Below the pieces are notes generated by a model that saw only the letters and a list, made by a program, of their open reading frames with translations, was not told where the DNA came from and ran no database searches. Below are positions 40,358-44,949 of a stretch of 64,000 bases of DNA, piece by piece. Both the position numbers and the translations under genes were made by a program. Source of the DNA: Gemmatimonas aurantiaca T-27 (GTDB lineage Bacteria > Gemmatimonadota > Gemmatimonadetes > Gemmatimonadales > Gemmatimonadaceae); NCBI RefSeq assembly GCF_000010305.1, contig NC_012489.1, forward strand, positions 930,001 through 994,000. Direction: 5' to 3'. Each line of letters begins with the position of its first letter. The first letter of the stretch is position 1.

Positions 40358-42187
40358 TCAGGCGACGGCGCGCGTAGTGTCCCGTACGGTGCGCGAACTC
40401 CACTGATGCCGATTCTCACCACCCCTCGGTGGCTGGTTGGCATCAAGGCGGAAGGCGCTGATCTGCTGCTGCAGGATACCCGACTGCTCGTCCAGCGACT
40501 GACTGGCCGCCGACAACTCTTCGGCCAGTGCGGCGTTCTGCTGGTTGGCCCCATCCATGGTGGACACCGCCCCATTCACCTGCTCGATGCCCGCGGATTG
40601 TTCCTGAGCGGCCGCGCTGATGTGTTCGATGAATCCGGTCACATGCTCCACCGCCGTGACGATGCCGCTCAACGCTTCGGCGGTTTCGCCAACGACTCGG
40701 CCTCCATCGCGGACTCTCAGCATGGTTTCGTCGATGAGATCTCCGATCTCCTTGGCGGCATTGGCCGAACGCAAGGCCAACTGGCGCACTTCGCCGGCGA
40801 CGACGGCAAATCCCCGTCCATGATCGCCAGCGCGCGCCGCTTCGACCGCGGCATTGAGCGACAGCAGGTTGGTCTGAAACGCGAGTTCGTCGATGACACG
40901 GGTAATGTCGCCGATGCGCTTGCCACTCTCACTGATGGCGGTCATGGCCGCCATGGCTTCGGCCATCAACTGCCCACTCTGCTGCGCTGCTGCGCGCGTC
41001 TGGCGGCCTACGTCTTCTGCTGCTTTGGCACGATCGGCGTTTTGCCGCACGCTCGCCGTCATCTCTTCCATGGCCGCAGCCGTCTCTTCGAGTGCACTCA
41101 CCTGTGCATTGGTGCGATTCGCCAGGTCGACGGTGCCATCGGCCAGTTGCGTCACCGATTCCTTCATGGACCACGCGACCGCATTCACTTCGCTCAATGT
41201 GTCGGCCAGCGATGCCGCGGCGCGGTTGAGACCGGACGCCATGCGTTCCAGTTCACCCTGATAGTGCTCACTCACGCGACCGGTGAGATCACCGCTCGCC
41301 ATGCCGTTGAGGACATCACCGGCTTCACGCACCAGGGCGGCGAGTGCGTGCTCCCGTTCGACTTCTGCGGTTACATCCGTACAGGCCTTGATCACCCCGG
41401 TGACCAGACCCTTCGCGTCCCGGAGCGGTGTGTACGCACCCTGAATCCAGATCGTCGCACCATCCTTGCGAACACGCGGATAGCGGCCGGAGAATGCCTC
41501 GCCGGCACGAAGCCGCTTCCAGAAGTTCGCATACTCGATGGTGGCCGCAAACGCCGGATCGCAGAACATGCGATGATGATGTCCGATGATCTGCACCGCT
41601 TCGTACTGCATCGCTCGCAGAAAGTTGTCGTTGGCATGCTGTACCATGCCTTCGAGCGAGAACTCGATGATGGCCTGCGTCGCGTTCATCGCCTCGAGCT
41701 GTGAGGCCGTCGCGGCCAACTGCCGGCGTTCCTCGGTGACATCGGTGGCGAACTTGATGATGCGTGTGACACGTCCGAACCGGCGCATCGGCGTGTACGA
41801 TGCCTGCAGGAACACGTCGCTGCCGTCTTTGTGTCGACGGGGGTACACACCACGATCGGTCTTGCCCGAACGAAGCTGCGCCCAGAAGTCGGCGTAGGCG
41901 ACCGAAGCCGCGTACGCGGGATCGCACAGCACACGATGATTCTGACCAAGGACCTCCTTTCGGGTGTATCCCAGGCTTTGGCACAGATGGTCACTGATCT
42001 CGACGATTCGGCCGGAGGGTGAGAACTCCACCCAGCCCTGCACATTTTCAATTGCCGCCAATTTCGTTGCCGCTGATGACCCGCGCCGGAACCCGAAAAA
42101 ATGCACCTGATCCTCGATCCGTTGGAGAGAGCAGCCGTCGTCGGATGCCCACTGCGAGGGGTGTGGTTGGTTCCAGCGACGCCTCAC
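40358..42187 (-). CDS. Soluble methyl-accepting chemotaxis protein with two PAS domains
   Basis: A protein of 609 residues with no membrane helix. Two PAS domains lie at about 40-150 (GWVEFSPSGRIVEISDHLCQSLGY) and 165-275 (IIEFSLEGMVQHANDNFLRAM), each ending with a PAC-like segment. The signalling domain has the conserved hairpin LNAAVEAARAGDHGRGFAVVAGEVRQLA, which meets CheA and CheW. The PAS pair may sense oxygen or redox. The start is GTG at 42187, with GGAGGTGA 6 bases before. A sigma-28-like promoter lies upstream. No CheR-docking pentapeptide is seen at the C-terminus. Confidence 0.93.
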   Translation of the reverse strand: MRRRWNQPHPSQWASDDGCSLQRIEDQVHFFGFRRGSSAATKLAAIENVQGWVEFSPSGRIVEISDHLCQSLGYTRKEVLGQNHRVLCDPAYAASVAYADFWAQLRSGKTDRGVYPRRHKDGSDVFLQASYTPMRRFGRVTRIIKFATDVTEERRQLAATASQLEAMNATQAIIEFSLEGMVQHANDNFLRAMQYEAVQIIGHHHRMFCDPAFAATIEYANFWKRLRAGEAFSGRYPRVRKDGATIWIQGAYTPLRDAKGLVTGVIKACTDVTAEVEREHALAALVREAGDVLNGMASGDLTGRVSEHYQGELERMASGLNRAAASLADTLSEVNAVAWSMKESVTQLADGTVDLANRTNAQVSALEETAAAMEEMTASVRQNADRAKAAEDVGRQTRAAAQQSGQLMAEAMAAMTAISESGKRIGDITRVIDELAFQTNLLSLNAAVEAARAGDHGRGFAVVAGEVRQLALRSANAAKEIGDLIDETMLRVRDGGRVVGETAEALSGIVTAVEHVTGFIEHISAAAQEQSAGIEQVNGAVSTMDGANQQNAALAEELSAASQSLDEQSGILQQQISAFRLDANQPPRGGENRHQWSSRTVRDTTRAVA

Positions 42188-42232
42188 GTCGCCTCACCTC
42201 CGAAAAGGCCTGACCTCTACGCAGTACTTTGG

Positions 42233-42259
42233 GTATCGGCGCAATGGTTGCGCACTTGA
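42233..42259 (-). promoter_or_regulatory. Sigma-28 (FliA)-like promoter of the chemotaxis receptor
   Basis: On the minus strand TCAAGTGC, an 11-base spacer and GCCGATAC match the flagellar consensus TAAAGTTT-N11-GCCGATAA: 7 of 8 in the -10, 5 of 8 in the -35, and exact spacing. The expected transcript start is some 38 bases before the receptor GTG. Confidence 0.65.
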
Positions 42260-42403
42260 GCAATGCGCATGACAATCACCGGCAGAGCAATAGGCGGTGA
42301 TGTATGCCACTCAAGTGGTGTCGGTGGCGTACCGATACTTCCGCGCCGGCGGTACGTCGTGACCGGATCGCTCCAGCCGGCGAGTCGTCAGCGCGCCGGG
42401 TGC

Positions 42404-42766
42404 CTAGGGCGTCGCGCTCTGTTTGAGCCGCGCGGTGAATTCGTAGTCGCCACCCGGTAGTGGGATCTGGGCACGCAGTGTGTCATAGCCGACGCGGCTC
42501 GTGACCAGCTCGGTCGCCCCGACCCCCAACCCGCCCAGCACATAGTTGCCATTCGAACCCGACGTGGTCGAGACGCCATTGGTGGTGACTCGTGCGCCCA
42601 CCAACCCCTCACCTGAAATCGCGTCGATGACGCGGCCGCGCAGGTGCGTGGACTGTTGGGCGGTTGGTGCGGGCACATGCACGTACGTCACCTTGGGATC
42701 GCCGCAGGCAACCAGCAGGCCGGCGACGGGCGCAGCGGCCAGGAAAAGGATGGGTGTCCTGCGCAT
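42404..42766 (-). CDS. Small lipoprotein with carboxypeptidase-regulatory-like domain
   Basis: A protein of 120 residues. The signal peptide ends LLVACGDP, a lipobox. A single carboxypeptidase regulatory-like (transthyretin-type) domain follows (LRGRVIDAISGEGLVGARVTTNGVSTTSGSNGNYVLGGLGVG). Such domains serve as binding or structural modules on the cell surface. ATG at 42766, with GGAG 7 bases upstream. It lies between gyrB and the receptor gene; its downstream end is 144 bases from the sigma-28-like promoter. Confidence 0.78.
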   Translation of the reverse strand: MRRTPILFLAAAPVAGLLVACGDPKVTYVHVPAPTAQQSTHLRGRVIDAISGEGLVGARVTTNGVSTTSGSNGNYVLGGLGVGATELVTSRVGYDTLRAQIPLPGGDYEFTARLKQSATP

Positions 42767-42836
42767 TGTGACTCCAGGAGAGGGGGCATCCTCAAAATGA
42801 TGCGGTTCGTCATCTCCAGCAAGCAATTCGGCCCTG

Positions 42837-42871
42837 CCTGCCACCGCCGGTATGTGTCGCGCGGTGGCAGG
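42837..42871 (-). terminator. Hairpin downstream of gyrB
   Basis: CCTGCCACCGC and GCGGTGGCAGG form an 11-pair stem with a 13-base loop 15 bases past the gyrB stop. There is no T-run, so it may be a weak or factor-dependent terminator. Confidence 0.45.
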
Positions 42872-42885
42872 AGATCATGCCCGGG

Positions 42886-44949
<2,064 letters not shown>

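Follow-up and report, generated by a model that had tools for sequence, protein, structure and literature searches.

The window analysed here is a 64-kb stretch, bases 930001–994000 of a genome that forms one contig of 4,636,964 bases. Its minus strand carries a chemotaxis receptor gene, preceded by a promoter-like element at 42259–42233 and, further upstream, by a small lipoprotein-like gene that reads toward the receptor; a second promoter-like element lies between the two on the opposite strand. The features of the locus are as follows:

40358–42106, minus strand: receptor gene, 582 aa when read from the start shared with the orthologs (ortholog alignment)
40550–41014, minus strand: MCP signalling domain (PF00015), gapless against Tsr (domain search, alignment)
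41216–41329, minus strand: HAMP-like linker (HAMP_2, under the Pfam cut-off; domain search)
41375–41674, minus strand: PAS domain 2, approximate limits from the model (domain search, structure model)
41741–42037, minus strand: PAS domain 1, approximate limits from the model (domain search, structure model)
42112–42115, minus strand: GAGG Shine-Dalgarno upstream of GTG 42106, also in both genus orthologs (sequence, orthologs)
42192–42201, minus strand: GGAGGTGAGG, Shine-Dalgarno-like, upstream of GTG 42187, the start assumed previously (sequence)
42226, minus strand: predicted transcription start, ~7 nt past the -10 (promoter geometry)
42233–42240, minus strand: -10-like element GCCGATAC, genus consensus TCCGATACT (sequence, genus matrix)
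42252–42259, minus strand: -35-like element TCAAGTGC, GCTCAAG with the upstream GC (sequence, Markov scan, genus matrix)
42311–42337, plus strand: second, divergent FliA-like site (TCAA, 17 bases, CCGATA), score 18.45 (motif scan, genus matrix)
42404–42766, minus strand: small lipoprotein-like gene (CarboxypepD_reg) upstream of the receptor (Pfam)

A reading made from the sequence alone had described the gene product as a soluble double-PAS chemotaxis receptor, and this description is confirmed, as two PAS domains and an MCP domain are present and a membrane segment is not. The assignment as soluble follows from the hydropathy profile, in which no 19-residue window of the receptor rises above 1.6 (the corresponding table of the genome's own receptors omits L037). 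The structure model of the PAS-PAS region (pLDDT 82.9) resembles DosP, MmoS, NifL and FixL in fold, all of them redox or oxygen sensors with tandem PAS domains. FAD-binding MmoS (3ewk), which unlike the protein described here is not a receptor, matches both PAS domains by sequence and by fold, and by fold they are matched equally by two haem proteins with tandem PAS domains, DosP and FixL; because FAD and haem proteins are matched alike, the fold does not discriminate between flavin and haem. E. coli Aer (PDB 31cj, 8dik) matches PAS domain 1 and the MCP tip by sequence. Aer has a single PAS domain and a membrane anchor, unlike the receptor. The signalling domain aligns without gaps to that of Tsr (6s1k, 1qu7, 3zx6), the alignment to 6s1k spanning residues 282–585 of the longest open frame (P0001), which places the receptor in the length class of Tsr, called 36H. 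Unlike Tsr, the receptor has neither a periplasmic sensor nor membrane segments, and it also lacks the NWETF-like tail motif. The length of the signalling core is common to the receptor and seven of the genome's other receptors. The idea that the receptor falls in a different length class from the others was rejected, since 8 of the 11 align gaplessly in the core. By eye, the receptor tip is nearer to proteobacterial Tsr than are the tips of the genome's other receptors.

The same PAS-PAS-MCP order is described for BdlA (PA1423) and McpS (PA1930) of P. aeruginosa in PMC8694187, so that the likeness is one of domain order. That paper states that BdlA and McpS have shorter MCP domains than other receptors, whereas the domain here is of full Tsr length and is accompanied by a HAMP-like linker; FAD is predicted for the PAS domains of both P. 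aeruginosa proteins (PMC8694187). The receptor was found in three of the 30 genomes of the genus (E 1e-70) and in two of 118 genomes of the family (E 1e-80), the closest ortholog with a named record being that of a Gemmatimonadaceae MAG (L061), and other relatives occur in Nitrospirota and Proteobacteria. The Tsr-like tip together with the patchy spread within the genus suggests that the gene at 40358–42106 was gained horizontally.

The open frame of the receptor extends upstream to GTG 42187, giving a protein of 609 aa in which GTG 42106 is residue 28. Alignment of the three orthologous proteins begins at GTG 42106, with no similarity upstream of it, and in all three a GAGG lies 2–6 bases upstream of the start. 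Since homology ends at GTG 42106, the upstream GTG is probably not the main start and translation probably begins at GTG 42106. The Shine-Dalgarno is better at 42187 than at 42106, and it is conceivable that both codons are used. Two earlier statements are thereby divided. The -10 does end 45 bases upstream of GTG 42187, and the strong ribosome binding site, GGAGGTGAG, is indeed present upstream of that codon, but both were referred to what is probably the wrong start, as the orthologs align from 42106. From the downstream start the leader would be ~120 nt, and the -10-to-start distance becomes 126, compared with 128 in one ortholog (G069). Rfam recognised no RNA family with a threshold of E 1, and the leader folds no better than shuffled sequences (z 0.48).

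The promoter motif reported on the minus strand was found as described: TCAAGTGC matches five of eight positions and GCCGATAC seven of eight in TAAAGTTT/GCCGATAA, with an 11-base spacer. This is the FliA consensus of E. coli, not that of the genus itself. At this spacing the window holds two sites that reach 12 or more of the 16 positions, where Markov sequence has 0.53 on average; of simulated 250-bp stretches, which model the region upstream of GTG 42187, 0.25% had one. Genome-wide, the unmodified E. coli consensus gave six matches when as many as three mismatches were allowed, none of them inside the flagellar clusters, and the reversed control also gave six. Because the two counts are equal, a match to the E. 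coli consensus carries little weight by itself in this genome; that consensus was dropped as a yardstick, and a local code was derived from flgL promoters instead.

FlgL is present in 26 of the 30 genomes of the genus, and the motif GCTMAAG-N15-TCCGATACT, with small variations, lies 87–100 bp upstream of the flgL ATG in 24 of the 25 upstream regions read (L170 was not read). A matrix was trained on the flgL promoters of 23 further genomes from the genus; the genome's own flgL (L145) was deliberately left out, and L156, which has no site, did not contribute. For each flgL, the sequence within 300 bp that best matched TMAA/CCGATA was taken as the site, so the -10 core of the matrix is partly chosen, but the flanking letters and the constant position at 87–100 bp were not part of the selection. 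Two features set the genus consensus apart from that of E. coli: a frequent C at position two of the -35, and a CT after GATA. The terminal C of GCCGATAC, an A-to-C mismatch to E. coli, is the genus consensus and is thus expected.

Applied to the genome that had been excluded from training, the matrix scores 22.8 at flgL, 17.4 at fliS, 16.4 at cheA, 13.3 at cheW, 11.4 at flgM and 10.1 at flagellin (gene names in this region are based on Pfam). These sites make up six of the eight best hits across the 80 kb of the flagellar region; the remaining hits score 11.3 (388379, minus) and 10.4 (345696, minus). The search for the motif before flagellar genes, proposed along with the original claim, thus has a positive outcome when made with the genus matrix. 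TMAA-N16/17-CCGATA occurs 17 times in the genome versus six in the reversed control, and two of the 17 are the site at 42259–42233 and its divergent neighbour. With a score of 15.24, the receptor's site ranks second in the window, the third-ranking site reaching 8.35, and sites scoring at least 15.24 occur 0.1 times per 64 kb in 30 second-order Markov windows. A good matrix score alone is no proof of a promoter, because high-scoring sites also lie inside unrelated genes.

Upstream of the receptor, the three orthologs have non-homologous genes and DNA that is not alignable by eye, yet a sigma-28-like site is conserved before all of them despite these differing surroundings. In G069 it reads TGAAG-N16-CCGATACC (TGAA-17-CCGATA), 128 bp before the start, with a strong score of 10.97. 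In G126 it reads GCTCAAGTGC...GACGATAAC (TCAAGTGC...ACGATAA), 81 bp before the start, with a weak score of 3.83; sites at that level are expected at 0.07 per strand of 400 bp. In G069 (L061) a GC-rich inverted repeat (CAGACGGCCG...CGGCCGTCTG), which may form a leader hairpin, was also seen between the promoter-like site and the start. The genome encodes 11 MCP domains, and sites scoring at least 14 precede four of the 11 receptors: the site described here, L036 (14.5), L038 (18.8, with the same GCTCAAGTGC) and L039 (16.9). At the other seven, the genus matrix found no clear site in place. Across 30 receptor loci of four congeners there are nine same-strand sites scoring at least 10 versus none on the opposite strand; eight of the nine lie within ~130 bp upstream of possible starts and one is internal. 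These congeners have 47 receptor matches, of which the 30 with loci were scanned, and several loci may stop short of the gene start.

The genome encodes FliA (above the TIGR02479 cut-off), FlgM (PF04316, 32.4 bits), flagellin, FliS, MotA, CheA and CheW, with three CheA-type kinases in all; the fliA and flagellar genes whose absence would have counted against the sequence-only reading are therefore present. The organism's motility, also claimed there, is what this gene content would predict, and flagella have been seen by electron microscopy in two congeners (PMC9862903). Taken with recognition of the site by the genus matrix, these genes support membership of the receptor in the flagellar regulon: the element at 42259–42233 is very probably a FliA (sigma-28) promoter, which would make the receptor gene a late one of class-3-like type within that regulon. 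Counting against this reading are the equal yield of the E. coli consensus and its reversed control, the low score of the G126 site, the seven receptors at which no clear site stands, the high-scoring sites within unrelated genes, and the occurrence of the receptor in three of 30 genus genomes. The two-element layout and spacing before receptor or late flagellar genes are shared with the E. coli class 3 promoters (tsr, trg, aer, flgM, fliC), and tsr, trg and aer are listed as predicted or shown FliA targets in PMC4183435; encoding both FliA and FlgM is likewise shared with the E. coli setting. We infer the FliA dependence, timing, array membership and cue of the receptor, and the causal chain from FliA release to receptor expression is modelled on E. 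coli. Completion of the hook-basal body and export of FlgM would free FliA, and RNA polymerase with FliA would then initiate near 42226. The mRNA, with its ~120-nt leader, would be translated mainly from GTG 42106 to give the 582-aa soluble PAS-PAS-(HAMP)-MCP receptor, which may enter cytoplasmic CheA/CheW arrays and signal an internal redox, oxygen or metabolic cue.

That the site is a functionless chance match is extremely unlikely. The E. coli consensus is no commoner than its control in this genome, as such a view would have it, but the simulations yield only 0.1 equally good sites per 64 kb while this one falls in the upstream region of the receptor, and the same-strand enrichment before congener receptors also argues against chance. 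It is also very unlikely that FliA polymerase binds here but makes only an additional contribution, with most receptor expression coming from another promoter, by a housekeeping sigma factor or by read-through from the lipoprotein gene. The genes upstream are co-directional, no terminator was found in a scan of 42050–42950, and high-scoring sites occur within unrelated genes of the genome; of the 52 FliA sites of E. coli, 30 lie within genes, and for most of those no RNA is detectable (PMC4183435). Against this, the same scan of 42050–42950 found no sigma-70-like site, and both orthologs retain a FliA-like site in spite of their different upstream genes.

A separate matter is which pathway the receptor serves. 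It is possible, if doubtful, that FliA merely times the expression of a receptor acting in a non-flagellar chemosensory pathway, in the manner of BdlA in biofilm dispersion. The three CheA-type kinases, the patchy distribution and a tip that appears by eye more Tsr-like than those of the other receptors would fit such a role, as would the precedent of P. aeruginosa, where McpS (PA1930) is said to affect chemotaxis negatively and BdlA to act in biofilm dispersal (PMC8694187). Arguing the other way, the core length is shared with seven of the genome's receptors, among which L036, L038 and L039 have FliA-like sites, and the cheA and cheW that adjoin the flagellar cluster have the same motif.

A receptor under a flagellar-type promoter is ordinary wiring of a known kind. 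What the locus adds is a patchy cytoplasmic double-PAS receptor under such a promoter in three different genomic surroundings, and a FliA promoter code, GCTMAAG-N15-TCCGATACT, obtained from sequence and usable to predict the flagellar regulon of a genus of Gemmatimonadaceae. This code may be undescribed so far, judging by a narrow literature search, which led only to a study on Priestia megaterium.

The divergent site at 42311–42337, unmentioned in the earlier reading, has the highest matrix score in the window, and none scoring at least 18.45 appeared in 30 second-order Markov windows. It stands back to back with the receptor's site, so that the two best FliA-like sites of the window lie within 105 bases end to end. 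The divergent site aims at the 3' end of the lipoprotein-like gene ~65 bp away, and since that gene is on the minus strand, a transcript from the site would be antisense to it. No convincing plus-strand frame, terminator or Rfam match was found behind it; the intergenic DNA lacks conservation across the genus, comparison giving only short pieces elsewhere (E 0.003–0.01), and no FliA-like site scoring at least 6 was seen near the orthologs of the lipoprotein gene in G134 and G118. The site might act as an antisense promoter, be a relic, or have no activity. In E. coli, two of 30 intragenic FliA sites yield detectable noncoding RNAs (PMC4183435). It is unlikely that, while the other site drives the receptor, the stronger divergent one drives a flagellum-timed non-coding RNA antisense to the lipoprotein gene and perhaps reaching toward the gyrB-like gene beyond; if this were true, the receptor promoter would at the same time put an envelope gene under a flagellar switch.

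Three further sites were noted elsewhere in the genome. One scoring 24.5 (L054 1501–1527, genome 1892764) lies within a gene that by eye resembles peptide chain release factor 2 and is probably a coding coincidence or an intragenic FliA site. Another, scoring 17.2 (L058, genome 3370810), is ~100 bp upstream of a candidate start codon for a membrane sensor-like protein, whose gene is a possible further member of the regulon. The third, scoring 14.4 (L059, genome 3838520), is six bases upstream of a candidate start codon and 3 kb from an MCP domain; the protein concerned is secreted-like or outer-membrane-like.
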